A stretch of 64,000 nt of DNA. Origin: Ferroplasma acidiphilum (GTDB taxonomy: Archaea; Thermoplasmatota; Thermoplasmata; Thermoplasmatales; Thermoplasmataceae). Position 1 is the first letter of the stretch; each line of letters starts with the position of its first letter. Of the stretch, positions 2,290-22,210 are shown piece after piece. The notes under the pieces are model-generated. The model did no database searches and had not been told where the DNA came from. It was given only the letters and a program-made list of their open reading frames with translations. The stretch is taken from the NCBI RefSeq assembly GCF_002078355.1, contig NZ_CP015363.1, forward strand, positions 1,426,001 through 1,490,000. The letters are read 5' to 3'. Both the position numbers and the translations under genes were made by a program.

Positions 2290-2802
2290 ATGGTCAAGAA
2301 GAAAGTAATTGTTGGCATTGTGCTTATAGTAATAGGAATTTCACTTGTCATCGGTGGCGTTGCCACAATTACCGGTGAACCTTCTGACCATACAGTAAAA
2401 GAATACAGCAGCAATGTTTATACATCTACCCAGTTTAATTTTTCCACCAACAGGGTACTTTTAATGGTAACATCGGATAATTCCTCAGCAGGGCTGGTAA
2501 ATTGCAGCAATATACAGGAACATGCATCCAGTTTTAATTCATCCAATATACACAATTACACGGTTGCTCCAGCTAAATACGTTGACGGTGAGCCATATTA
2601 TGCTAACCTGAACGGGACTTATAAATATGTGGTCGTTACGGATAAGGCTCCAACAATGGATTATAATTTTGTTACATCCTCAGAACTTGCAAGGGTTACC
2701 GATGCAAGCTATGTAGCTGCTGCAGGTGCACTTCTAACCGGTTCAGGAATCATAATTGCAATGGTTACAATACTTTTCGGGAAAATAAATGCCCGTAAAT
2801 GA
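2290..2802 (+). CDS. Two-helix membrane protein with extracytoplasmic domain
   Basis: A 170-residue protein with a hydrophobic segment at residues ~5-27 (IVGIVLIVIGISLVIGGVA), an external domain of ~105 residues rich in Asn, Ser and Thr with several N-x-S/T sequons, and a second membrane segment at ~143-163 followed by a short basic tail. The topology places the middle domain outside the cell. I do not recognise a family. The sequon density is common in surface proteins of acidophilic archaea. TATA-like TTATATAAT about 25 bp upstream suggests its own leaderless transcript. It lies next to, but opposite in strand to, a cluster of three further secreted proteins. Confidence 0.65.
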   Translation: MVKKKVIVGIVLIVIGISLVIGGVATITGEPSDHTVKEYSSNVYTSTQFNFSTNRVLLMVTSDNSSAGLVNCSNIQEHASSFNSSNIHNYTVAPAKYVDGEPYYANLNGTYKYVVVTDKAPTMDYNFVTSSELARVTDASYVAAAGALLTGSGIIIAMVTILFGKINARK

Positions 2803-2894
2803 TACATGTTATTCCAGAACATTTATGCTTATTTAGAAACTTACACTTAAAGTTGATATTTATAGTGTTTTTTAATATCTGGCATAGCGTCGCC

Positions 2895-3734
2895 CTATAT
2901 CGAACTGCTTGGTATTTCAAAGTTGAAACTGTGGCCTGCAGTTAAATTTGAAGCGTCTATTGTGTATATATAGGTTAAATTGCTATTATATAGTTTGTAT
3001 TCTGTATCGGGTTTTAAAAAGCAATAAAAGTACCCATTTATTACGTGCATTGTTTTGTAATTGCTATTGTTGATATTTTCTATCAATAATGATGTGTTTA
3101 TTTTATCTATAGATAGTGAACTGGTATTTTGCACAGTCCCATATATTGCGGTTTCCTTTATACCGGAAATATCAAATGTATTGTAGAAATTATTATTCAG
3201 CGATATACTGACAGATATGTTATAGTAATTATTATGTATATATTTGTCAATATTCCTTATTGTTATTGAAGGAATGGATATGTTATTCCCATTTATTCTA
3301 TATTTAACATGGCATACGCCACTTATATAACTGGAATGTATCTCTGTTGCATTGTTTAAGGATGGATTGAATGTTGAAGGCTCTGCCTGGCTTATAATAT
3401 CTACATATATGTATTTATTATTAACATTCTTTAAATGTATGTTTATGCCAAAGCATATGCATCCATAACCGTATGGAAGTACTCTGGGTTGAATTATTGT
3501 TGAATTCATATATGATAGCTTATTATGATTTACATAATATGAAGATGCAGTATAGTTATTTGTGATATATGGGAATGTGTAGCCAACACTGAAGTATTTC
3601 ACATCAATAGGTTCCCCGTTGTTATTGTAAGTTACATTATTTCTTGTTATGTCATAGACTATGAATGATGAGATCAGTATTATTACGATTAATATTGCTA
3701 TGAATATTTTAAAGTGCTTTTTAATATCTGGCAT
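2895..3734 (-). CDS. Signal-anchored surface protein A (tandem family)
   Basis: About 280 residues: a short basic N-terminus, one strong hydrophobic segment (IFIAILIVIILISSFIVYDI) acting as signal anchor, then an Asn/Tyr/Ser-rich, sequon-rich outer region. Residues up to SGIKETAIYG are identical to protein B next door; the tail (~80 residues) is a small beta-rich domain with KPDTEYKLY, related to but distinct from the tails of B and C. The start chosen is the inner ATG (MPDIKKHF), because GGAAGTGA sits just upstream as a ribosome site; an ATG 15 bases earlier overlaps the stop of B. Function is unknown. Third gene of the A-B-C cluster in transcription order. Confidence 0.75.
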   Translation of the reverse strand: MPDIKKHFKIFIAILIVIILISSFIVYDITRNNVTYNNNGEPIDVKYFSVGYTFPYITNNYTASSYYVNHNKLSYMNSTIIQPRVLPYGYGCICFGINIHLKNVNNKYIYVDIISQAEPSTFNPSLNNATEIHSSYISGVCHVKYRINGNNISIPSITIRNIDKYIHNNYYNISVSISLNNNFYNTFDISGIKETAIYGTVQNTSSLSIDKINTSLLIENINNSNYKTMHVINGYFYCFLKPDTEYKLYNSNLTYIYTIDASNLTAGHSFNFEIPSSSI

Positions 3735-4892
3735 CAATCTCACTTCCATATATTTAAGGGAGTTGAATTACCTGCAGATGATGTTGTAATTGAGTTTAAT
3801 CCAGTTATTTTATTGTTGCTGATGTGATAAAATTCGTGTAATTTACCGTTATCCATATAATATAATTTATATGTTGTATCAGGCTGTGCAAAGAAATAAA
3901 AATACCCATCTCTGATAGATACTATATGAAAATTATGTGTATTATTATTTTCTATATATAATGATGAAGTAAGATTAGGGTCACGTACCTGTGATGTGTT
4001 ACTTTGACCTACACTCCCATATATTGCGGTTTCCTTTATACCGGAAATATCAAATGTATTGTAGAAATTATTATTCAGCGATATACTGACAGATATGTTA
4101 TAGTAATTATTATGTATATATTTGTCAATATTCCTTATTGTTATTGAAGGAATGGATATGTTATTCCCATTTATTCTATATTTAACATGGCATACGCCAC
4201 TTATATAACTGGAATGTATCTCTGTTGCATTGTTTAAGGATGGATTGAATGTTGAAGGCTCTGCCTGGCTTATAATATCTACATATATGTATTTATTATT
4301 AACATTCTTTAAATGTATGTTTATGCCAAAGCATATGCATCCATAACCGTATGGAAGTACTCTGGGTTGAATTATTGTTGAATTCATATATGATAGCTTA
4401 TTATGATTTACATAATATGAAGATGCAGTATAGTTATTTGTGATATATGGGAATGTGTAGCCAACACTGAAGTATTTCACATCAATAGGTTCCCCGTTGT
4501 TATTGTAAGTTACATTATTTCTTGTTATGTCATAGACTATGAATGATGAGATCAGTATTATTACGATTAATATTGCTATGAATATTTTAAAGTGCTTTTT
4601 AATATATGGCATGGTTATCACTTCCATATATTTAAGGGAGTTGAATTACCTGCAGATGATGTTGTAATTGAGTTTAATCCAGTTATTTTATTGTTGCTGA
4701 TGTGATAAAATTCGTGTAATTTACCGTTATCCATATAATATAATTTATATGTTGTATCAGGCTGTGCAAAGAATAGGAATGTACCGTTCTTTATAGTTGC
4801 ATTATAAAATGTATGAGTATTTGCATTTTCTATATACAGTGATGAAGTAAGATTAGGGTCACGTACCTGTGATGTGTTACTTTGACCTACAC
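3137..4892 (-). repeat. 878-bp tandem direct duplication creating gene B
   Basis: Sequence from ~3137 reappears 878 bp further right with only scattered differences, for example 3138 versus 4016, 3713 versus 4591, 3741 versus 4619 and 3963 versus 4841. The two units abut near 4014/4015, and each spans roughly one gene length. The unit joins the 5' part of an A-type gene to the 3' part of a C-type gene, so the extra gene B arises at the junction, where A-type and C-type DNA share TCCC. Confidence 0.9.
3740..4612 (-). CDS. Signal-anchored surface protein B, chimera of A and C
   Basis: About 290 residues. The N-terminal ~205 residues, including the anchor segment, are identical to protein A; the C-terminal ~80 residues, starting at the SVGQSNTSQVRDPN stretch, are nearly identical to the C-terminus of protein C. 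The gene therefore looks like a fusion product of the 878-bp tandem duplication described separately. Its upstream ATG overlaps the stop of C by 10 bases (ATGGAAGTGA), and the same bases form a GGAAGTGAT ribosome site for the inner ATG (MPYIKKHF), which suggests translational coupling. Function is unknown; probably displayed outside the membrane. Confidence 0.75.
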   Translation of the reverse strand: MPYIKKHFKIFIAILIVIILISSFIVYDITRNNVTYNNNGEPIDVKYFSVGYTFPYITNNYTASSYYVNHNKLSYMNSTIIQPRVLPYGYGCICFGINIHLKNVNNKYIYVDIISQAEPSTFNPSLNNATEIHSSYISGVCHVKYRINGNNISIPSITIRNIDKYIHNNYYNISVSISLNNNFYNTFDISGIKETAIYGSVGQSNTSQVRDPNLTSSLYIENNNTHNFHIVSIRDGYFYFFAQPDTTYKLYYMDNGKLHEFYHISNNKITGLNSITTSSAGNSTPLNIWK

Positions 4893-6210
4893 TCCCGCAT
4901 ATCGCCGAAGCAGGAACAGCATTGATTGTCTGAGTTGTTGTAGCCCTTGTATCGGTAATAAGGCGAGACCCGCACTCATACTCTGTTGCGTATTTTATAT
5001 CTATTTTGAAATTGCTGTTTAGCTGGCTGTTAGGCACTTTTATATTTGCTTCTATTCCCGATGCATAGACATTCTGGCCGTTCTTTACATAGGAATCTCC
5101 AGACATGCTGCCACCGGTGATGCAATATTTAATATCGGCAAGATTGTTGCCAGTAGCATAACCATTTATCGGCTTTGTGGTAACACAATGTATTAAATTA
5201 TATGCAGTGCCTGCTGCCTGAGCCCCTGTTACTGCATATCCGGCAACAGGTATAAGTGAAAAGCCATCTCCTATTAGTGAAACTTCATCCTGCATTTCTG
5301 TTGCACTTTTTGAATCCATATCTGTTACATTGTATCCTACTTCTTCATTATTACAGAACTGTACACTAACGTCAGAAGGAGCACCTGATGTTTGCAAATC
5401 TGTTACTAATTTATATGGTCTGGTGCATGTGGACAGCCCTGATTTAGCATCAAAACTACATGATTGGGCACCTGCACCCACATCGGTAAGATTTAATGAT
5501 ATATACAGATGCTTTCCGTTATCTGATTCAATATAGGCAGTTTTACCTACAATTATACTTTTATTTGCTTCATTGTCGCCATGGTAGATTCCACTGGAAT
5601 CTGTAATGTTAAAATTATGGTATATACTATAAAATAAACCTCCAGGTGCACCGCATATATTGGAAAGGTATATGCTGCCATTCCCATCATAGCCTGTTAC
5701 ATCTAAATATTTCTTTACGTGTATAGTGGAATCGCCAAATGTTGAATATGCATTCCTGAAGAATACCATTGGTTTAAAACCCAAACGTGCAGGGCAATCT
5801 TCCCATGCAGACTCTGAGAGGTATTCTGCATGGAAATTTATATTTCCATAGTTTAATCCAACATTCCAGTTATATGTGTATACTCCTGTACTGCTAACAT
5901 CAACAGTATGGACATTCTTATAATTGACATAAAAATACATTATTGTAGGGCCTGCACATTTTGATTCTGAAAAGGATGTAACATCAATCTTCAATGTTAC
6001 TGTATTTCCAATAGTTGCGGATGATGGTGCACATGTTTTGCCTGATACGGACCATTTATCGGCTGTTAAACCATAGGATAATGGTTTTATAACAGATGTG
6101 CTGATATCATTATTTTGAGAATTTTGCTGTGATGTTATTCCTGAAAATGCCATTATTATAAACATAATAACCACTATGAAAGATGTGAATACTATATATT
6201 CATGTTTCAT
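4618..6210 (-). CDS. Large secreted surface protein C
   Basis: A 530-residue protein with an N-terminal signal or anchor segment (YIVFTSFIVVIMFIIMAF), then a long extracytoplasmic region with about a dozen cysteines, unusual for a cytosolic archaeal protein and suggesting disulfides. Mid-protein it has a hydrophobic stretch, LIPVAGYAVTGAQAAGTAY. The last ~100 residues carry the PDTTYKLYYMDNG domain shared with protein B and more distantly with A. I do not recognise a catalytic family; a cell-surface or adhesion role is inference only. A TATA-like TTTATATATA about 25 bp upstream of the ATG makes this the first gene of the A-B-C transcript. Confidence 0.75.
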   Translation of the reverse strand: MKHEYIVFTSFIVVIMFIIMAFSGITSQQNSQNNDISTSVIKPLSYGLTADKWSVSGKTCAPSSATIGNTVTLKIDVTSFSESKCAGPTIMYFYVNYKNVHTVDVSSTGVYTYNWNVGLNYGNINFHAEYLSESAWEDCPARLGFKPMVFFRNAYSTFGDSTIHVKKYLDVTGYDGNGSIYLSNICGAPGGLFYSIYHNFNITDSSGIYHGDNEANKSIIVGKTAYIESDNGKHLYISLNLTDVGAGAQSCSFDAKSGLSTCTRPYKLVTDLQTSGAPSDVSVQFCNNEEVGYNVTDMDSKSATEMQDEVSLIGDGFSLIPVAGYAVTGAQAAGTAYNLIHCVTTKPINGYATGNNLADIKYCITGGSMSGDSYVKNGQNVYASGIEANIKVPNSQLNSNFKIDIKYATEYECGSRLITDTRATTTQTINAVPASAICGSVGQSNTSQVRDPNLTSSLYIENANTHTFYNATIKNGTFLFFAQPDTTYKLYYMDNGKLHEFYHISNNKITGLNSITTSSAGNSTPLNIWK

Positions 6211-6531
6211 TATAAATTAAACGTATGAATATATATAAATGTTTGTGTGATAGTGATATTATTACAGATAATTACTGAATTTTTATACTATATCGTTAGA
6301 CTCCATTTTTAGATTTTATGGGATTATATATTCATAGAATATGATATTATGGTAATTAACAATGGGATATATTTCTGTAACTCATAAATATTGCAAATCC
6401 AATCATACTGATTCCTGCGCATTAATTTACAATGTAATAAGCTTGCATAGCTCCTTATTTTTTTACCTTCGTTCCTGGAGATTGACATCAATGCAACACA
6501 AAAAACTTTAAACTAATTGTAATAGGCTTAT
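6211..6531. other. Intergenic region between surface-protein C and purB
   Basis: A+T-rich spacer between divergent genes. It holds the TATA-like box of gene C near 6225-6240 and a TTTAAAC-type box about 25-30 bp before the purB start. I see no open frame with coding character and no strong inverted repeat. Confidence 0.5.
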
Positions 6532-7899
6532 ATGATCGTTTCACCACTGGATTATCGATATGGCAGGGACAATGTAAAAAACATATTTTCAGAGGAAACA
6601 AGGTTAAATATTATGCTAAATGTTGAAGCTGCAATTGCCCAGGCCGAGTCATATTACGGCATCATACCTGAAGAGGCATATGCAGACATAAGAAAAGTTG
6701 TTGATAACAATGAAGTAAAAATAGGCAGGGTAAAGGAGATAGAGGCAATCATAAACCACGATGTAATGTCAATAGTGGAAGGTTTAACGGAAAAATGCAC
6801 TACTGGAAAAAATTATGTGCATTTCGGTGTTACTTCCAATGACATAAACGACTCTGCCTCTGCAGTGCAGATGAAAAGAGCCATAAGCATAATAATATCT
6901 GACCTTGAGGATCTGGGCAAAGCCCTTGTAAGCAGGATAAAAGAAAATGAAGAGACAATAATGGTTGGTAGGACCCACGGGCAACATGCATCCCCTATAA
7001 CACTGGGACTAAAGTTTGCTGTGTACCTTTCAGAGATCGGCAGGCATCTGGAGAGGATCCAGGAAGCAAGAAAACGGATTATTGCAGGCAAAATCCTTGG
7101 CCCGGTTGGAACAGGCGCTGCACTTGGAAAAAATGCCCTTAAGATTCAGGAAAAAACATGCGAAATACTGGGCATAACACACGAAACGGGATCAACCCAG
7201 ATAGTTGGTAGGGATAGGTATATTGAATATCTTTCAATAATAAACAATATATCGGTATCCATGGAAAAATTTGCAACCGAAATACGGAATCTTCAAAGGC
7301 CGGAAATTTATGAACTTTCAGAATATTTCGATAGTGATAAGCAGGTAGGGTCAAGCTCCATGCCATCAAAGAGAAACCCCATAGTTTCCGAGAATATAGT
7401 TAGCCTTGCAAGATTAACAAGGTCATTTATAATTCCTGAATATGAGGCGGGAGTCCAGTGGCATGAGAGAGACCTTACCAACAGTGCACTGGAGAGATTT
7501 ACCATACCATATGTATCCATACTCGCAGATGATATAATAACTAAAATGACCGGTGTATTTTCACATTTGTTTATAAACCGCGAAGAGATGAAAAAAAGGG
7601 CATATGGAGATGAGTTTATTATGTCTGAAAGTGTTACCACCACCTTAACGGAAAATGGCATGCCCAGGCAGGATGCCCATGAATTTGTCAGGGAGGCTTC
7701 AATGCATGCCTATAAACAGAAAAAAACGTTAAAGGAAACTCTGGTGGATATGGGTATTCTAAACCACATCTCTGAAAAAATACTTGATCGAGCTATGGAG
7801 CCTGAAAATTTCCTCGGTGTTTCAAAAGAAATATGCGAAGATGCAATAAAAAACTTTGATAACCTTCAAAAATACCTGGCAGGTGAGATATATGATTGA
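6532..7899 (+). CDS. purB: Adenylosuccinate lyase
   Basis: A 455-residue lyase of the fumarase/aspartase superfamily. It removes fumarate from SAICAR in purine synthesis and from adenylosuccinate in AMP synthesis, in the cytosol as a tetramer. The superfamily signature GSSSMPSKRNP is clear, with the usual THGQHASP block before it and HFGVTSNDINDSA near the N-terminus. Length fits the family. It starts at the ATG about 25-30 bp after a TTTAAAC box, so probably leaderless. The stop overlaps the start of the next gene by 8 bases, which indicates co-transcription with it. Confidence 0.97.
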   Translation: MIVSPLDYRYGRDNVKNIFSEETRLNIMLNVEAAIAQAESYYGIIPEEAYADIRKVVDNNEVKIGRVKEIEAIINHDVMSIVEGLTEKCTTGKNYVHFGVTSNDINDSASAVQMKRAISIIISDLEDLGKALVSRIKENEETIMVGRTHGQHASPITLGLKFAVYLSEIGRHLERIQEARKRIIAGKILGPVGTGAALGKNALKIQEKTCEILGITHETGSTQIVGRDRYIEYLSIINNISVSMEKFATEIRNLQRPEIYELSEYFDSDKQVGSSSMPSKRNPIVSENIVSLARLTRSFIIPEYEAGVQWHERDLTNSALERFTIPYVSILADDIITKMTGVFSHLFINREEMKKRAYGDEFIMSESVTTTLTENGMPRQDAHEFVREASMHAYKQKKTLKETLVDMGILNHISEKILDRAMEPENFLGVSKEICEDAIKNFDNLQKYLAGEIYD

Positions 7900-8476
7900 A
7901 AATTTCGAGGATACAAAGAGGTATAAATTAATATTAAACGAAATTAATGGAGAAGAAAAATCCATAACGGGAATACAAAAATCACTTGAAGAAAAAGGAA
8001 TAAATATGCACAGGCTTGTGCTTACAGGTTACCTGAATGCAATGGTTGAACTTGGCATATTGCGTGAAAGGGAAATAAAGCCAGCAAGGATATTTTCATT
8101 TGTAGGGCAGAATAAGCAGGACATATACAGTATAATTGGTTCAAACATGAAAAAATTTGATGAGAGCAATGCGGGATATAACTCACTGCTTGTACTCCAT
8201 TATTTATTTGAAAGGCCTATATTTACCAGGGAACTGGAAAAGTGCAATGTGGTAATCCCATCAAAATCCATTAAATACGTTGATTCCCGTTACAGGGCTG
8301 ATTATATTAAAAAGCTTGGGGAAGCGAATATAAAAATATCACCGTCCAGCACGCTTATAGAGCCTGTTGATGCTGATAAAATATCCATAACAAAACTTTT
8401 AAACTACATTATTTCTAATGAATATGACATAAAGAAATATACTGTGGTAAATACAAGCCAGAAAACACTTGATTAA
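7892..8476 (+). CDS. Unrecognised protein with winged-helix-like N-terminus
   Basis: A 194-residue soluble protein. The start is the ATG eight bases before the purB stop, because AGGTGAG lies 5 bases upstream as a ribosome site; a further in-frame start inside purB is unlikely. Residues ~8-55 read like a winged-helix fold (ITGIQKSLEEKGINMHRLVLTGYL, then MVELGILRERE), so a DNA-binding or wing-mediated regulatory role is possible. The rest has no motif I recognise. The overlap with purB implies one transcript. It may be a lineage-specific gene; no function is claimed. Confidence 0.7.
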   Translation: MIENFEDTKRYKLILNEINGEEKSITGIQKSLEEKGINMHRLVLTGYLNAMVELGILREREIKPARIFSFVGQNKQDIYSIIGSNMKKFDESNAGYNSLLVLHYLFERPIFTRELEKCNVVIPSKSIKYVDSRYRADYIKKLGEANIKISPSSTLIEPVDADKISITKLLNYIISNEYDIKKYTVVNTSQKTLD

Positions 8477-8517
8477 TAAAAGTTATATCCGTTAATTATA
8501 TTATTAACAGATAAACT

Positions 8518-9174
8518 ATGACAATATATATGTACGTCCTTGCTTATAAAATGAATGGCAAATTCTGGGCACTTACGGACAAAGAAAAAGAAAATGTAAA
8601 CAGCAACATTATACATTTCATTAATAATTACAGAAAAAACCTTATCAGTATAAAATACTACAAATCAATAAGGCATGACAATGATATCCTTATCTGGTCA
8701 GCCTCTGACACGCCGATTAACCTTGAAGGGCTAAAGGAAGGAATAAACTCTGCCATTGGAATCTATGGAAAAAGTGAATACAGCATGTTCTCACTCTACG
8801 AGCATTCTCCATATGTAAATGCAACAAACAGCCTGGAAGATACCTTGAAAACAGAACCCAAAAAATATTTTGTGGTATACCCTATGAGCAAGGATAGGGA
8901 ATGGTACCTGATCAATTATGAAGAGAGAAAAAAGATACTGGCGGGACACATAGGAACTGCCAGAAGCGACAAGGAAAGCCCGGGAATAATATCCTATACA
9001 ACATACTCATTCGGATTGGGAGACCAGGAATTTGTGGTTCTTTATGAACTGGATGACCTTGCTGCATGGTCACATGTAACAGAAAAATTGAGGGAGGTTA
9101 TGGCAAGAAAATGGATAATAAATGAAGCTCCGATATTTGTTGGAATATACAATGGGGATAAACTGGTGATTTAA
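8518..9174 (+). CDS. HemQ/chlorite dismutase-family heme protein
   Basis: A 218-residue member of the chlorite dismutase superfamily. In many bacteria and archaea this fold is HemQ, which decarboxylates coproheme or harderoheme to heme b. Family marks: KKYFVVYPMSKDREWYLI in the central strand, ILAGHIGTARSD with the His expected as proximal heme ligand, and TTYSFGLGDQEFVVLYE afterwards. The distal Arg that defines true chlorite dismutases is not evident at the expected place, so HemQ-like activity is more likely, but this is inference. The next gene, a rhodanese, starts one base after its stop, so the two are an operon. Confidence 0.88.
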   Translation: MTIYMYVLAYKMNGKFWALTDKEKENVNSNIIHFINNYRKNLISIKYYKSIRHDNDILIWSASDTPINLEGLKEGINSAIGIYGKSEYSMFSLYEHSPYVNATNSLEDTLKTEPKKYFVVYPMSKDREWYLINYEERKKILAGHIGTARSDKESPGIISYTTYSFGLGDQEFVVLYELDDLAAWSHVTEKLREVMARKWIINEAPIFVGIYNGDKLVI

Positions 9175-9175
9175 G

Positions 9176-9532
9176 ATGTCGATAAAAAATTATTTCAGGG
9201 GTTCTGATTATTTTAATCAGCCACAGGAACTGGAAAACCTTACGCCAGAGAAACTTACTGCCTTGAAGGAAAAATATCCTGTAATTGATGTACGCACTGG
9301 CTTTGAATACAGGCATGGGCATATAAAGGGTGCTATACCCTATAAACTTGGAAAAGAAGATGAAATAGAGAAAAAATTTCCAAAGGACGAACCTATTATT
9401 CTTATATGCAAAACCGGTCACCGTAGCCGTGCAGCGGCAAACAGGCTTGTTAGGAAAGGATATAAAAAGTTATACCACCTTGAAGGCGGTATGGATAAAT
9501 GGAGAAAGGAAAATTTTCCAGTAGAAAAATAA
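9176..9532 (+). CDS. Rhodanese-domain sulfurtransferase
   Basis: A 118-residue single-domain rhodanese. It probably moves sulfane sulfur to an acceptor via a persulfide on the active-site Cys in ICKTGHRSR. Other marks are VIDVRTGFEYRHGHIKGA (CH2A-type) and the final HLEGGMDKW. The N-terminal ~35 residues precede the domain and lack a signal peptide, so it is cytosolic. It is coupled to the HemQ-like gene with a one-base gap. Whether the pair serves heme or Fe-S supply is inference. Confidence 0.93.
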   Translation: MSIKNYFRGSDYFNQPQELENLTPEKLTALKEKYPVIDVRTGFEYRHGHIKGAIPYKLGKEDEIEKKFPKDEPIILICKTGHRSRAAANRLVRKGYKKLYHLEGGMDKWRKENFPVEK

Positions 9533-9533
9533 T

Positions 9534-9764
9534 TTATGCTAATCCAAGTTGTTCCAGTTCATTCTTTTCTTTGGATTTCTTTTTAAGTATATATCTTGTT
9601 ATATAACCTGCAATGGCATTTGCAGTTTTTTTCGTTACAGTTTTCTCTATAAAACTGTGTAAAATCTCCTTATTATGGTTAAAATCCTCATTGAAAAGAT
9701 CCTTGTTATTATCAACTAATTCTTCAGAAATTCTTTTTATGTTAGACGGCCTTATGCTTCCCAT
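9534..9764 (-). CDS. rps17e: 30S ribosomal protein S17e
   Basis: A 76-residue archaeal/eukaryotic-type ribosomal protein of the small subunit. The sequence follows the family closely: MGSIRPSNIKRISEELV, then DFNHNK and the conserved AGYITRYILKKK. The start is the ATG at 9762-9764; an in-frame GTG two codons upstream is less likely. A TATA-like TTTATATA on this strand lies ~25 bp before the ATG. It is convergent with the rhodanese gene, one base apart, with no room for a separate terminator. Confidence 0.95.
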   Translation of the reverse strand: MGSIRPSNIKRISEELVDNNKDLFNEDFNHNKEILHSFIEKTVTKKTANAIAGYITRYILKKKSKEKNELEQLGLA

Positions 9765-9847
9765 TAACACATTATTTTAAAACAATATATAAACAATTTC
9801 ATTTATGAATCTAGTTGAACTGGAAAAATGAAAATTTATAAAAATAA

Positions 9848-10285
9848 TTATTCCTTTGGGGGAACAACTGTAACTGGAATATTGGAGTGTGCTATAATTC
9901 CAGAACTTACAGACCCTAGTATGAGTTTACTGAAACCATGCAATTTCCTTGTGCCTGTGACTATTAAGTTAATTCCTTTCTCCTCTGCTGTTTTTAGAAT
10001 GATTTTCGGTATCTCCTCTCCATTAGAACTTATCTTTATAAGTTCGTATTTAGCTTCTTCTTTATCCAGAACTTTTTTTGCTTTTTCCAGGATCTGGTCG
10101 GCAGTTTTATCCTGCCCTTCATAAACAGATTGTGGTATATAGGAATCGAAGCTCGCACTGATTCCAACTATTGTGGGTATAACATAAACAATATAATATT
10201 CATCAACAGTGCATTTTAATTCAAGGGCATATTTAAGCGCCTCTCTAGCCCCCTCTGATCCATCATATGATACTAAAACTTTCAT
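9848..10285 (-). CDS. Universal stress protein (UspA family)
   Basis: A 145-residue single-domain Usp protein. It begins MKVLVSYDGSEGAREALKYAL and ends with the ATP-binding loop GTRKLHGFSKLILGSVS, which fits the G-2x-G-9x-G-S/T pattern with one position altered (TRK-L-H-G). ATP binding is therefore likely. The cellular role of archaeal Usp proteins is mostly unknown. TATA-like TTTAAATACTT about 25 bp before the start suggests a leaderless monocistronic mRNA. It is followed by the S17e gene on the same strand, with its own promoter. Confidence 0.93.
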   Translation of the reverse strand: MKVLVSYDGSEGAREALKYALELKCTVDEYYIVYVIPTIVGISASFDSYIPQSVYEGQDKTADQILEKAKKVLDKEEAKYELIKISSNGEEIPKIILKTAEEKGINLIVTGTRKLHGFSKLILGSVSSGIIAHSNIPVTVVPPKE

Positions 10286-10452
10286 TAGAAATAATCAGAC
10301 AGAAGTATTTAAATTTATTTAATAATTATGTTGCTTGCACCGGTACACCGGATACTTATGCCCTTTGCAGCCATAAATAATGGTTTAATAATAAAATAGG
10401 TATTTATATTAAAAAATAATACCAAATATACATTTATATTTGAGGTGACATA

Positions 10453-10560
10453 TTGAAACGAAGTTCAAGAGATTGGAAAAAGAAAGGAAACATGCGTTGG
10501 AAATGGAGAAAAAAGAAAATAAGAAGATTAAAGAGAGCCAGAAGAGCAAGCAAGCAATAA
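10453..10560 (+). CDS. rpl41e: 50S ribosomal protein eL41 (35 aa, TTG start)
   Basis: A very short, strongly basic protein, easily missed because of its size and TTG start. GAGGTGA at 10442-10448 sits four bases before the TTG. From there the product begins [18 protein letters not shown] and ends with the helix [16 protein letters not shown]. The WKKKG-MRWKW pattern and the Arg/Lys helix are those of eL41, a single-helix protein at the subunit bridge. The 22-residue form from the internal ATG at 10492 would match eukaryotic length, but the ribosome site supports the TTG. A perfect 7-bp hairpin follows the stop directly. Confidence 0.92.
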
Positions 10561-10561
10561 T

Positions 10562-10581
10562 GCCATAGGTTTTTCTATGGC
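10562..10581 (+). terminator. Hairpin after eL41
   Basis: GCCATAG (10562-10568), loop GTTTTT, then CTATGGC (10575-10581), a perfect 7-bp stem one base after the eL41 stop. There is no long T-run after it, so it may act as a 3'-end stabiliser or pause site rather than an intrinsic terminator. Confidence 0.6.
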
Positions 10582-10680
10582 TGCCTTCCATTATGTTAAT
10601 GCATATCATTTGTTCATTGTTAGTTAACAAATTCCTATTTTAAAAAGTTTTTATATAGAACAGTTATACTTGTATTAGAA

Positions 10681-11277
10681 ATGAAAACTAAGGCCACCAT
10701 AGGAAATTATACCGTGCTTTTAAAATCCAACCTGGCCCAGGCGATCAAGGTTCTTTATAATACAAGGAAAGTTATATATTATCCAGCAAACAGGGACTAT
10801 CCAAAATTAAGTGAAGCACTGGATATATTTAAATTAAATATAAACAGCATGGAAGACAAGGGGGCCAGGGTAGCTATTGCCTTTAATGGGAATTTTATAT
10901 ATAAAAAACTGGACACTGACAAAAAAAATAGCCTTATACATTTTCTGGACTTCCTGCTTCTGATCCCACCTCCAAAATTTTCAATAAGGAAAGGCAAAAA
11001 CACTGCAATAATTAATGAAATAACAGTCCCAAAACTATCTTCAATACTGGATTCGGTGCTTAACTTTAAATTTCCCAGATACTGGATAGATAAACAGAAA
11101 GAATATGAATCTATATCTATTGCCATAATGAGGATAATAAATGAAAGTGACAATAATCAGAGTTTGCCGGAACCACTATGGAAAATTGAGCAAAATTTAA
11201 AAGAAAAAGATGTTGAATCTATAAAGTTTTATACAGCTCAAATAAAAGAATGGATATCTATGGGATTAATTTTATGA
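10681..11277 (+). CDS. Unrecognised soluble protein
   Basis: A 198-residue protein rich in Lys, Ile and Asn with no membrane segment, cysteine motif or known signature that I can see. Two central segments (LIHFLDFLLLIPPPKFSIRKG and the ISIAIMRIINES helix) are hydrophobic enough to be a folded core. The start ATG lies after TTTTTATATAGAA, ~30 bp upstream, so the gene probably has its own promoter. Its last codons overlap by 6 bases the end of the convergent MFS gene. Probably lineage-specific; function unknown. Confidence 0.6.
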   Translation: MKTKATIGNYTVLLKSNLAQAIKVLYNTRKVIYYPANRDYPKLSEALDIFKLNINSMEDKGARVAIAFNGNFIYKKLDTDKKNSLIHFLDFLLLIPPPKFSIRKGKNTAIINEITVPKLSSILDSVLNFKFPRYWIDKQKEYESISIAIMRIINESDNNQSLPEPLWKIEQNLKEKDVESIKFYTAQIKEWISMGLIL

Positions 11278-12705
11278 CTGCTCTTTCTTTGCTTCTGGCA
11301 ATATGAGTTTAGGCACGCCATGGACATGCTTATAGGATGCTAAAGCAATTTCTTCCAGGGTTAACCCCTTTGTTTCTGGCGTAAAGAATATTGTAAATAC
11401 AAAGGCCAGAACCATTAAACCGAGAAGGATAAAGAAGAACGATGATTTGCCCAGTGATGCACTTATAAGCGGAAACATGAACGCAGCAAGGAAAGAAGCT
11501 ATCCTTGTTATGCCTGTAGCACCACCCATGGATGAAGACCTCAATTTTGTTGGAAGCAGTTCTATTGCGTATAATCCCATGGTATCACCGGGGCCAAGGT
11601 TGCCTATGCCATAGTCAATCACAAATGCTGCAATTCCGATAATTATCCCTATGCTTGCTATCGCACTGGATGCAATAAAGAACATAGCCATGGCTATTGC
11701 CATTCCACCGAATCCTAAAGCCTGCAAAGGCCTCCTGCCAAGCCTGTCATTAAGCATTACTGCACCGAATGCACCGAGGAATCCAACCGGCATGTTAAAT
11801 ATAAGGGAAAACAGTAGTGAAGAACTATGTGATATTCCCAGTGTAGTTAGTATAATTGGTGAATAAAGGCCTATACCATATCCAGCTATATCATAGAGTA
11901 TCCACTGGAACCATATAATAGCCGTACGTTTTCCATATTCCCCCTTAAATAGTGCTGTGAATGAACCGGCGGCGATATTTTCTTCCTTCTCCCTTTCAGC
12001 TATTATAGCTTTTATATCCTCTTTTGTAATCCCTACCCGTTCTGCTATTGAATCCAGGTCTTTTGCGGATAATTTTGATTTGCCCGGCTCCAGTATATCC
12101 CATCTCACAGATTCTGGCATCCGTGTTCTTAACACTACTGTAACTATTGCAGGTATTGCACCTATAGCCAGTGTATATCTCCATCCCACAAGAGGGTTTA
12201 TCATATAAAAAACGTATCCGATTGCAAATGCCGCTCCTGCACCGATGCTCCAGAATGTCCAGACCCAGCCATATCCTGCACCCCTCTTTTTGTCCGGGTA
12301 CATTTCTGTTGTGTATACCGGACTCAAAGCGTAATCTGCTCCAACTCCCCAGCCCACGAAGAACCTGAATATTATCATTTCATATATGTTCGTGGATAAC
12401 GCAGATAGTATAGCAAATACAGCGAAGAATATGAGATCGAATATATACAGATACCGCCTGCCAATATTATCGGCAAAATGCCCGAAAATAACGGCACCCA
12501 CAAAGGCACCCAGAAGTGCTGCGCCGGTAACAAAAGATTCCGTAAATGGATCATAATGGAATGGCTTAAATGTAACAAGCACAAGGGTAAATACGGATAT
12601 CACACTCAAATCGTAACCATCCAGAAAATACCCCATAGCGGAAAGTGTTGTAATCACTGACCTGCCGGGAATTTTAATTTGACTTCCAGTTTCGTTTTCT
12701 GTCAT
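11272..12705 (-). CDS. MFS transporter, sugar-porter/metabolite:H+ symporter type
   Basis: A 477-residue secondary transporter of the major facilitator superfamily with about 12 membrane segments. The loop 2-3 motif appears as GHFADNIGRR, and the end carries PETKGLTLEEI, the PETKG mark of the sugar-porter and metabolite:proton symporter groups. A long cytosolic loop at ~195-245 (KLSAKDLDSIAERVGITKED) separates the halves. The inward proton gradient of an acidophile would favour symport, but the substrate cannot be read from sequence. It stands alone on its strand; the 273-bp spacer upstream holds its promoter and the divergent gene's. Confidence 0.9.
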   Translation of the reverse strand: MTENETGSQIKIPGRSVITTLSAMGYFLDGYDLSVISVFTLVLVTFKPFHYDPFTESFVTGAALLGAFVGAVIFGHFADNIGRRYLYIFDLIFFAVFAILSALSTNIYEMIIFRFFVGWGVGADYALSPVYTTEMYPDKKRGAGYGWVWTFWSIGAGAAFAIGYVFYMINPLVGWRYTLAIGAIPAIVTVVLRTRMPESVRWDILEPGKSKLSAKDLDSIAERVGITKEDIKAIIAEREKEENIAAGSFTALFKGEYGKRTAIIWFQWILYDIAGYGIGLYSPIILTTLGISHSSSLLFSLIFNMPVGFLGAFGAVMLNDRLGRRPLQALGFGGMAIAMAMFFIASSAIASIGIIIGIAAFVIDYGIGNLGPGDTMGLYAIELLPTKLRSSSMGGATGITRIASFLAAFMFPLISASLGKSSFFFILLGLMVLAFVFTIFFTPETKGLTLEEIALASYKHVHGVPKLILPEAKKEQS

Positions 12706-12978
12706 TCAAAAAGTATAAACCAGATGTATATAAATAATTGCATAATACTTAATAATAGCAGCAATATCAAGATGATTATATTATTATTTGTGGCATATTT
12801 GCCTGTTTCAATGAATACTGCATGGCATCTATTTATTATATTTCATGAACCAGCATACTATGTTGTATTTCAATGTTTCCATGGTCGCATAACATCCCTG
12901 AACTATATTAATGCAGTTAACCAATATTATTTCAAAAGTGTAATAAAAAGTTTTATAAATCAATACAGATAAGGTATA

Positions 12979-13938
12979 ATGCTGGAACACGTGGACACTG
13001 GTACCCATCTCTATTTTCTCCATATGTTGCAGGATAACGGCATGGGAATCCAGTTCAAATGGAAGGAAATTAAAGATATTTCTGTTGCAATATTTGGAGA
13101 TAGCATATTTGATGACATTGTTAAGAATGAAATTGTGGATACATGCTCCGATAATGAAATACTTGAAGTAACCAATCTGAATAATATAGATTCGAACCTG
13201 CCACGATCTCAACGTGAATCCCTATACAGCGCAATTATAAAGTTTCTTTCCACGGACGAAAACGTGCCAGGAATAATGGAAATAATATATGCGTCCCGTA
13301 AAATAGGGAGGGCTATAATTGATTCTATTAACATGAATATTATAATAAATAAATTAGAGGATAGGTATATAAATTTAAGAATAGCTATGGCAATGGCGTC
13401 ATCCATGGACTTTTACTACTCTGTACCATTCAGGTCTTTCTGTAAAACAAGGCTGGATAAGGTTCAATTTTCTTTTGATAATTATGAAAAATATCTTGGC
13501 GACATGTGGTTTATAAAAATAGTGCTGGCTATGAAAGACAATACAGGTGAAGGCCTGGCATACGTAAAATTTCCGGAAAATTCGAGGTTAAATTATATTG
13601 AAACAATAAACGGCATGGCTGCCGGCGGGCTTCTGGCGTCATTGTTCTTGCACAGCGCAGAGTTCTTGAGTGATACCAGGGTAATTTCGGCTATAAACCG
13701 GTACGAATATAATGAAATAAAGAAGCAGAGAGCAGGCAAGTTTTATGGCTGGGTCGCTATAGGCAATGATGTGGCAATAGGCCTTGAGTTTCTAAGTGGC
13801 AGCATATTATTTTTAAGCCAGGCAGATTACTTCTATGGAGTATACCTTTTCATAGCCGCGAGCATACAGTTGCTTGTTAAGCCAGGTATTGAAATATTCC
13901 GGAGAGCAAGAGTTTCCACAATGAAGAAAAATAAATAA
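12979..13938 (+). CDS. Membrane protein with C-terminal YrhK-like two-helix domain
   Basis: A 319-residue protein. Residues 1-250 are mixed alpha/beta without a motif I recognise. Residues ~250-310 hold two membrane helices with the pattern GNDVAIGLEFLSGSILFLSQ and YFYGVYLFIAASIQLLVKPG, resembling the YrhK family, ending in a basic tail. The N-terminal part therefore probably faces the cytosol. A TTTTATAAATC box ~28 bp upstream suggests a leaderless mRNA. Glutamate decarboxylase follows 54 bp later with its own TATA-like box, so common transcription is uncertain. Confidence 0.65.
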   Translation: MLEHVDTGTHLYFLHMLQDNGMGIQFKWKEIKDISVAIFGDSIFDDIVKNEIVDTCSDNEILEVTNLNNIDSNLPRSQRESLYSAIIKFLSTDENVPGIMEIIYASRKIGRAIIDSINMNIIINKLEDRYINLRIAMAMASSMDFYYSVPFRSFCKTRLDKVQFSFDNYEKYLGDMWFIKIVLAMKDNTGEGLAYVKFPENSRLNYIETINGMAAGGLLASLFLHSAEFLSDTRVISAINRYEYNEIKKQRAGKFYGWVAIGNDVAIGLEFLSGSILFLSQADYFYGVYLFIAASIQLLVKPGIEIFRRARVSTMKKNK

Positions 13939-19614: not shown

Positions 19615-20209
19615 TTAATCCACCTGCTTTTTCAATAAAATTATTTATTTCCTTATATTTTATTTTCTGTGATACCCTGTTAACCACCAGAATTGCAGAG
19701 ATATCCATTATTTTCTGTATTTCCACCAGATTATTCTTCTTCATGGTTTCTCCGGTCTGGACCACATCCACAATTGCATCGGCTATCCCTGTTTCCGGTG
19801 CAAGTTCAAGGGAACCGTTCAAAGGTATTATATTTGCATCTATGCCCATGGAAAAGAAATAATCCCGGGTAATATTGGGGTGTTTTGTGGCTATGTCAAG
19901 CCCTTCAAAATCTTTTATGCTGTATTTTTCCGGAGCAATTAAGCTGAGCCTGCATTTCCCGAAATTCAGGGTCAATGGCGTAAACAGCCTGCTCCTGCTC
20001 TCAGAAAGTGTGTCGGAACCGCATATGCCTATATCTCCTGCATATTCTGTATATACAGGTACATCCCTTGCCCTTGGCAATATAATTTCATTGCCATCCT
20101 GGTAGAACATGAGTTTTCTGTCATCATCGATATTTATTTTTATCCCTGCATTTTGAAGGAATGCCAGGGAATCATTCATCAACCTGCCTTTTGGTATTAC
20201 AAATTTCAT
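19577..20209 (-). CDS. hisG: ATP phosphoribosyltransferase, short form
   Basis: A 210-residue catalytic subunit of the first histidine step. It has the short-form length, without the C-terminal histidine-binding domain; such enzymes need HisZ, which is encoded next to it. Visible marks: FVIPKGRL at the start, DIGICGSD, and the PRPP-binding-type segment IADAIVDVVQTGETM. The last ~13 residues overlap hisD. Feedback inhibition by histidine would act on the HisG-HisZ complex. Confidence 0.95.
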   Translation of the reverse strand: MKFVIPKGRLMNDSLAFLQNAGIKINIDDDRKLMFYQDGNEIILPRARDVPVYTEYAGDIGICGSDTLSESRSRLFTPLTLNFGKCRLSLIAPEKYSIKDFEGLDIATKHPNITRDYFFSMGIDANIIPLNGSLELAPETGIADAIVDVVQTGETMKKNNLVEIQKIMDISAILVVNRVSQKIKYKEINNFIEKAGGLNGNRRVCKKYIE

Positions 20210-20958
20210 CTTTGCACATCTCCGTATAATTTTGATAATGCCTGCAAATCAAGCGAGAAGCCACATCCATTCATCTTTTTAATTACGTAATTTCCACCGC
20301 CTCCAAGAAATTCGTGCCTTCCATAGATCTCGAATATAAGGCCACGGTAATATTCAGGTTGCCTCACTGTCCCGAGGTCTATAATAACCCGTGGATCATT
20401 TATTTCTTCTAATATGCTGTCCAGTTCAGGTATGCCACTATTCCTTGTCCTGGTGTCCATTATCTGAAACAGTTTATCCATGCCATCAATATCCATATTC
20501 TGAAGCTGTGGATAGTTCCTGTTTTTCACTGCATTTAAAATTATGTCTCCATCTTTTTTCTTCCTATATGGGTCAAAAACATCTGTAATGCTGATATCAA
20601 TATTGTAATCCCTTATCCCCAGGTCATCCAGAATTTTTATGGCCATTTTCAATATTTCTATATTTGCCTCACCTGGAACTGCCCCTATAATTTCCAATCC
20701 AGCTTTGAGTGATTCACCGAGAAATTCGTCTGCCTGCCGTGAAATATAATAAACCCTGGAATTTCCAGGAAAACGGTTGTTCATTAACCTGAGGGTAATA
20801 TCGGGCTCAAGGACATACACATCATTCCTGAATATAAACCTGAATCCACCTATCCTATCAGATTTTACATATGCAGGAGGGAATATTTCCGAATATCCAG
20901 AATCATGGCATGATTTCCTGATGGAGTAGGCAATATCACTTAATTTCTGATCTTCCAT
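20206..20958 (-). CDS. hisZ: HisZ, regulatory subunit of ATP phosphoribosyltransferase
   Basis: About 250 residues, a histidyl-tRNA synthetase paralogue that lacks aminoacylation and binds histidine to regulate short HisG. Marks are the class II-type EIFPPAYVKSD, VLEPDITLRLMNN, VYYISRQADEFLGESLKAG and the C-terminal GGGGNYVIKK. The anticodon-binding domain of HisRS is absent. The start is the ATG at 20956-20958; an in-frame GTG five codons upstream is weaker. It is the first gene of the operon and overlaps hisG by 4 bases. Confidence 0.92.
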   Translation of the reverse strand: MEDQKLSDIAYSIRKSCHDSGYSEIFPPAYVKSDRIGGFRFIFRNDVYVLEPDITLRLMNNRFPGNSRVYYISRQADEFLGESLKAGLEIIGAVPGEANIEILKMAIKILDDLGIRDYNIDISITDVFDPYRKKKDGDIILNAVKNRNYPQLQNMDIDGMDKLFQIMDTRTRNSGIPELDSILEEINDPRVIIDLGTVRQPEYYRGLIFEIYGRHEFLGGGGNYVIKKMNGCGFSLDLQALSKLYGDVQR

Positions 20959-20965
20959 TTTCAAA

Positions 20966-21016
20966 ATAACCACTATAATTCAAAATACTATCTGGCAAAC
21001 TATAAACTGTGGTTAT
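20966..21016 (-). promoter_or_regulatory. Likely his operon promoter/operator
   Basis: ATAACCAC (20966-20973) and GTGGTTAT (21009-21016) form a perfect 8-bp inverted repeat spaced by 35 bp just before hisZ, with A+T-rich sequence including TTTATAG between the arms. This could be a regulator-binding pair around the promoter. No experimental support. Confidence 0.4.
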
Positions 21017-21169
21017 CTTGCTATGATGATGTATATGCGAAGCCATTTTTGAAAAAGCAGTATCGCTGGCTATATATTCCGTATACATCTCTGTTGCCAT
21101 GGGCTTTGATTATAATAGCATATATAAGAGTTATCAATAAAAATTATGCTTAAAATATCAATTTTAATA

Positions 21170-22210
21170 TTAATGTGCCCCCGGTGGAAAAACTATGTCA
21201 TCGAATTTTCTATATGTTTCTTCATCGAATCTCAATAAGTCAGGGTTTACATTCTGTTCCACCGCCATATAATATGCCAGATAATACAATGGAAGGACAT
21301 TTAAAAGTGCGTTTATGTACTCGTCCCCTAAGTCCGGCAAATCTATGGAATAATCACCATCTCCGTTAATTACCACGGTCTTTGTACCTACTACTTTACA
21401 TGCCCTTACTATATCATCTGTCCTTGAATTAACTGTATTGCTGTTAATTATGATCAAAAGCGACTTGTCATCTATGAGCGATGTACACCCATGAATAAAT
21501 TCTTCAAGTTCTATTCCCTCCGCGTGTATATGTGTAGCTTCCTTTATTTTCTGTGCAGCTTCCCTGGCTACAGGCTCTTCCGGACCTGCGCCCAGTACGA
21601 ATATCCTGTTGACGTATGAAAGGTTATGTGCGATTTTCTTTACAGTTGAATCCAGGGATGCTACAAGCCCCTTCAGTGTTTCTATGGTATTATCAATGTC
21701 CATGTCAATTCCTGCATATCTCGAAGCAATGTACATAGATGCAATGGCATTGTCAAAGAAGGATTTTGTATTGCAGAGTGATTTATCATCAGCATCGATA
21801 ACTATGCTTTTATTTGATATGAGTTCCATGGGTGTTCCATGGTAATGTGTTATTCCCACTATATACGAAAATTTTTTCTGGTATATGAGGGAGTCTATGG
21901 TTGATTTTGTTTTTCCACTGTTTGATATTCCAACGACGGTTCCATGAACCGGGACATAATAATTTAAAAGTTCATATGACTGGACAAATGCGTATTTTAA
22001 ATCCGTTTTATACAGGAATCCTGCGCCTATCTGGGCTGCGTGGTATGCCGTGCCATTTCCTGTAAACAGCAAAGGTTTGCTGGATAGAAATGAATAATCT
22101 GTATTTTCCATGGTTTTTCTTGTAATTTCAAGGGATTCTGGCGTTTCCCTGATCATATCATACATATAATACGGATGCCCATTGCGTTTTTCCGGAATTG
22201 TATCTGTCAT
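21170..22210 (-). CDS. SIS-domain sugar isomerase, GlmS-isomerase-like
   Basis: A 346-residue protein with two SIS domains (residues ~45-170 and ~195-320) like the isomerase half of glucosamine-6-phosphate synthase, but without the glutaminase domain. The sugar-phosphate loops are visible as TGNGTAYHAAQIG with GISNSGKTKST, and LGAGPEEPVAREAAQK with an ATHIHAEGIELEEFIHG segment. Likely roles are deamination or isomerisation of phosphosugars, like FrlB or AgaS, or ammonia-dependent glucosamine-6-P formation; sequence cannot decide. It is monocistronic. Confidence 0.85.
   Translation of the reverse strand: MTDTIPEKRNGHPYYMYDMIRETPESLEITRKTMENTDYSFLSSKPLLFTGNGTAYHAAQIGAGFLYKTDLKYAFVQSYELLNYYVPVHGTVVGISNSGKTKSTIDSLIYQKKFSYIVGITHYHGTPMELISNKSIVIDADDKSLCNTKSFFDNAIASMYIASRYAGIDMDIDNTIETLKGLVASLDSTVKKIAHNLSYVNRIFVLGAGPEEPVAREAAQKIKEATHIHAEGIELEEFIHGCTSLIDDKSLLIIINSNTVNSRTDDIVRACKVVGTKTVVINGDGDYSIDLPDLGDEYINALLNVLPLYYLAYYMAVEQNVNPDLLRFDEETYRKFDDIVFPPGAH

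Follow-up and report, generated by a model that had tools for sequence, protein, structure and literature searches.

A putative mobile, modular surface-protein operon of Ferroplasma with a middle gene probably overwritten by gene conversion

Three adjoining genes of Ferroplasma acidiphilum Y raise the question of how the middle one came to share its head with one neighbour and its tail with the other. They lie in the 64,000-nucleotide stretch analysed here (the window), part of a genome assembled as a single contig of 1,826,943 bases, and overlap by ten bases at both the C/B and the B/A boundary.

4618..6210, minus strand: gene 1 (C), 530 aa
3740..4627, minus strand: gene 2 (B), 295 aa
2895..3749, minus strand: gene 3 (A), 284 aa
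2859..2885, minus strand: truncated head-gene start (MPDIKKHYK), 27 nt, directly after A
2799..6473, no strand given: whole cassette, as used for site comparison with relatives

Protein C comprises an N-terminal hydrophobic signal or anchor, an Ig-like region (a weak Big_3_5 match), a variable middle and a C-terminal β domain. In B an N-terminal transmembrane helix is followed by a variable head and a C-terminal β domain, and A combines a head identical to that of B with a gene-3-like tail. The true start of B is likely to be at 4612 (MPYIKK) and that of A at 3734 (MPDIKK).

A sequence-only reading of this locus had described a tandem repeat and a chimeric B, and both are confirmed. The offset is constant at 878 bp from 3137/4015 through 4018/4896, and B is made up of the head of A and the tail of C. 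Over their first 204 residues A and B differ only at residues 4, 5 and 8, while from residue 204 onward B equals C except at residues 228–244. The same reading had spoken of near identity over long parts; long identical runs are indeed present, but the identity is a mosaic, with the mismatches held in two pockets.

4015..4018, minus strand: TCCC, joint of A head and C tail, in the codons of the AIYG motif at the start of the C-terminal β domain
3137..3727, minus strand: A head tract, 591 bp identical to the B head at 4015–4605
4015..4605, minus strand: B head tract, identical to the A head
3728..3739, minus strand: junction pocket, 5 mismatches in 12 bp against 4606–4617; start context of A versus B
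3740..3895, minus strand: B tail tract, 156 bp identical to C (4618–4773), gene-1-type
3896..3961, minus strand: B pocket, 26 mismatches in 66 bp against C (4774–4839)
3962..4018, minus strand: B loop tract, 57 bp identical to C (4840–4896); strand and loop after the AIYG motif

The 882-bp unit contains 31 mismatches, all of them in the two pockets (5 at 3728–3739 and 26 at 3896–3961), leaving mismatch-free runs of 591, 156 and 57 bp. When the mismatches were shuffled the longest run obtained was 306 bp, and none of 20,000 trials reached the observed 591 bp. A simple duplication should leave a constant offset with one joint, as seen in the 878 bp and the TCCC, and also copies that are alike apart from scattered mutations. 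Here the 31 mismatches are packed into two pockets, a pattern that plain duplication followed by later mutation cannot explain. Gene conversion leaves identical tracts that give way abruptly to divergent sequence, as seen among A, B and C, and here the tracts end at two conserved places, namely the start regions of the short genes and the AIYG codons, where the C-terminal β domain begins.

We therefore favour, as the probable history, a mobile, modular Ferroplasma surface-protein operon in which B is an old gene 2 overwritten by gene conversion. The operon of genes 1, 2 and 3 would diversify by homologous recombination among its own modules and with the cassettes of other cells. B would then be a pre-existing gene and not a newly made one; gene conversion would have erased the differences between its head and that of A, and sequence of gene 1 (C) would have replaced most of its C-terminal domain. 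The two divergent pockets may be what survives of the original, a gene-2 hairpin and a start context. The copying direction, from C to B, is suggested by the gene-1-like wording of the common tail (FFAQPDTTYK, AGNS).

The sequence-only reading was also right in calling the event recent. With the laboratory mutation rate of this strain, 1.3e-8 per site per generation (PMC5473848), zero differences over 804 bp place the exchange within at most about 1.4e5 generations if the sites are neutral, a rough figure that takes all tracts as one event.

The main competing explanation, which we regard as unlikely, returns to the origin of B as first read, a single 878-bp tandem duplication. With C and A then adjacent, an unequal crossover at the short AIYG/TCCC homology would have duplicated 878 bp and created B; short recombination with another cassette would afterwards have replaced both pockets. 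The head and tail tracts abut exactly at the TCCC under one constant offset, so that conversion must reuse the same boundaries where duplication yields them for free, and cassettes of two genes do exist (G006b, and F. acidarmanus Fer1, which lacks a full third gene). Duplication, however, requires two extra replacements that by chance bring back a hairpin of gene-2 type and a start context that differs, in a region whose flanks would be poor matches for a foreign gene 2. Other cassettes moreover have a middle gene. The chimeric make-up of B thus stands, but a single duplication is not the best fit, given that middle gene together with the gene-2-type pocket of B, the own start context of B with the gene-3-like tail of A, and an identical gene 1/gene 2 tract at the same motif in Fer1 that occurs without a head duplication.

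The identity of the pocket was assessed with profiles for typing pieces of the tails, built without the F. acidiphilum Y genome. The pocket at 3896..3961 of B encodes the gene-2-type hairpin NNTHNFHIVSIRDGYFYF. The pocket profile separates all eight gene-1 proteins (scores above 0) from all 13 gene-2/3 proteins (below 0); C scores +8.8 and B −18.5, whereas the tail of B flanking the pocket on both sides scores C-like (+6.2). At the DNA level the B pocket is about 0.6 identical to gene 2 and to gene 1 alike, so the gene-2 assignment rests on 18 residues. The whole A tail leans towards gene 3 (+12.7, a weak score, against −63 for B), while the A pocket by itself leans towards gene 2. The three genes thus appear to keep three separate identities.

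B-like genes are found in Ferroplasma genomes and hardly outside them. At least six Ferroplasma genomes have the same cassette plan, with one or two short genes behind a long gene 1. Three cassettes have the three-gene version in the order gene 1, gene 2, gene 3 (one in G004 and two in G005), G006 has two cassettes of the two-gene version, and the Fer1 cassette has genes 1 and 2 plus a third gene that is truncated. In each short gene the transmembrane start is similar to the others of its genome, the middle varies, and the C-terminal domain begins with AIYG. No further copies of the cassette genes were found in the F. acidiphilum Y genome, searched with B and then with a short-gene profile.

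Shared tracts recur in these other genomes, as repeated gene conversion would leave them. Genes 1 and 2 of Fer1 are identical over 57 bp, from the AIYG motif to just before the pocket, and have no head duplication. At the same place genes 1 and 2 share 77 bp at 92% in G004 and 67 bp at 92.5% in one G005 cassette (G005a), and genes 2 and 3 of G004 have 111 bp in common at 97%, just before and across the AIYG motif. Within single cassettes the loop after AIYG matches between gene 1 and gene 2 at 0.745, against 0.422 when permuted (p=0.0004; p=0.0028 without F. acidiphilum Y); the pockets are not matched in this way (p=0.06). These values come from few cassettes, some of which share one genome. 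Conversion, selection for matching partners, or the two together may have left this agreement of the loops. The two gene 1 copies of G005 are 98.9% identical over 533 bp and then diverge. Between these cassettes (L031:4219-5276 and L032:3675-4732), 507 bp upstream plus the gene 1 start agree at 98.3%, as a copying event inside the genome would leave them.

The recurrence bears also on the assembly, in which one unit could have been falsely duplicated or two units merged. The repeat is longer than single reads of the 454 and short Illumina data used (PMC5473848), but an artefact is very improbable: the units differ in two separate pockets, both flanked by unique sequence, tracts of the same type occur in independent assemblies, and repeat correction and fosmid end reads were reported by the authors (PMC5473848). 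A diversity-generating retroelement or other targeted mutagenesis, which might be suspected from the confinement of the differences to a short stretch, is hardly conceivable as the source of the divergent pocket. No reverse transcriptase was found in the genome by a search that was positive in three named control genomes, and all four bases of the C copy are affected by the mismatches (A 10, C 8, T 5 and G 3). With neither a reverse transcriptase nor adenine-directed changes, a diversity-generating retroelement was rejected.

The locus varies between close relatives. The cassette (2799..6473) is missing at this site in Fer1, G005 and G006, where the flanks are conserved; in Fer1 these are 97.9% (1957–2798) and 99.5% (6474–13533) identical. 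Fer1 has its own cassette elsewhere in the genome, with proteins 34–37% identical to those of F. acidiphilum Y. This absence from three relatives lends something to the idea that the F. acidiphilum Y cassette was imported whole as a hybrid of two cells' cassettes, its head and tail identities being by-products with no exchange within one chromosome. An identical tract across species does exist: G002 and G006, which are different species, share 126 bp at 100% in genes at different cassette positions. Ferroplasma populations are also reported to be mosaic through recombination (PMC2704941). Since the A–B and B–C identities join neighbours within one genome, import alone is insufficient, and we consider it quite improbable as the explanation.

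Gene conversion within an old cassette leaves the question of what the proteins do. Sequence-only searches of Pfam and PDB returned no family for genes 2 and 3, and for gene 1 just the sub-threshold Big_3_5 Ig-like match; PDB matches near E=0.9 were taken as noise. Structure models, computed from only three sequences, all from the window, were poor (mean pLDDT 39 and 36), and the usable part is the tail domain of B (approximately residues 200–292), predicted to be a β-sandwich. Foldseek gave no match below E=0.001. An excess of glycosylation sequons is suggestive in some short genes and not significant for B. The N-terminal hydrophobic segments and the β-rich C-terminal domains would suit outward-facing, membrane-anchored proteins, which would place C, B and A outside the cell. 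Variation in such proteins may serve escape from viruses or change cell–cell contacts, a role resembling antigenic variation. A viral origin of the genes themselves was rejected, as viral contigs contained no relatives of B or of the head-gene family.

Shuffling of the antigenic-variation kind is well described in pathogens, where it is driven by immunity; Borrelia vlsE and Neisseria pilE vary antigenically by gene conversion. The Ferroplasma genes resemble these in having conserved ends, variable middles and segmental tracts bounded by conserved motifs. They differ in that genes 1–3 are all open frames, with only short, 3′-truncated head starts beside the cassette. Where vlsE and pilE pair an expressed gene with a library of silent donors, the search of the F. 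acidiphilum Y genome gave only the three genes, besides the 27-nt relic. Nor has switching been observed for the Ferroplasma cassette.

Among archaea, the closest parallels are the hypervariable islands of haloarchaeal cell-wall and surface-protein genes, such as GI1 of Haloquadratum walsbyi (PMC4535781). As there, surface-protein genes differ between close relatives, and homologous recombination and mobile elements feed the variation (PMC4535781). The present locus likewise differs in content between conserved flanks, and each of its three proteins has one N-terminal hydrophobic segment, as expected of membrane or secreted proteins. Unlike GI1, a large syntenic island of many genes (PMC4535781), the Ferroplasma operon is 3.7 kb with three related genes, sits at different places, and exchanges sequence between neighbours inside the operon. 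Recombination in Ferroplasma populations is known from the work of Tyson, Allen and Eppley, reviewed in PMC2704941, which describes this genus as having genomes of mosaic structure that vary through recombination and transposons. That work concerns genome-wide allelic recombination, and the available text of the review mentions neither the cassette nor exchange between paralogues.

The similar pattern seen here belongs to an archaeon reported to have no cell wall, living in acid and without an animal host, so the selective force would have to be viruses or cell–cell contacts. The cell surface of Ferroplasma appears to undergo rapid reshuffling rather than to have arisen by a single simple duplication. 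From their matched loops, genes 1 and 2 are predicted to encode physical partners, a prediction open to direct testing, and the cassette is a compact, well-delimited locus at which recombination rates of a wild archaeon could be measured. A tentative extension would make it a dedicated archaeal surface-variation cassette, in which genes 1 and 2 are matched in one C-terminal strand and loop like interlocking partners, heads are swapped at two conserved motifs, and the truncated start at the end is a landing site where recombination exchanges or adds genes.

A truncated head-gene start directly follows the last gene in 8 of the 9 cassettes with a readable 3′ end, and the cut point is different in each. 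An isolated, decayed head-gene start is also present among conserved genes of G005 and G006 (L093:4900-5045, L094:5800-5950), and may be the footprint of a lost cassette; the surrounding genes match 20206–22210 of the window, where there is no such relic. In place of the cassette, Fer1 has 193 bp of unrelated sequence (L100:10751-10943) with a short open frame (MPEIFSEKKQGW...), possibly a remnant of another insertion. The neighbourhood of the Fer1 cassette itself (L091:10600-18001) is a patchwork relative to F. acidiphilum Y, with 100% identity at one end and pieces of 78% and 67% matching two other places.

In fragmented genomes, eight cassettes lie on contig ends where 2.9 are expected (Poisson 0.01), an excess that homology-based finding may bias and that is therefore only supportive. 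By eye, no target-site duplication was recognised at the cassette ends. Transposase-like genes, judged by the appearance of their sequences, occur near several cassettes. Close to the present one, a transposase-type gene at 442–1890 (within 433–1956 of the window) is missing in Fer1, where the sequence continues without a break, and TTTAATC stands at both ends, as expected of a target-site duplication.
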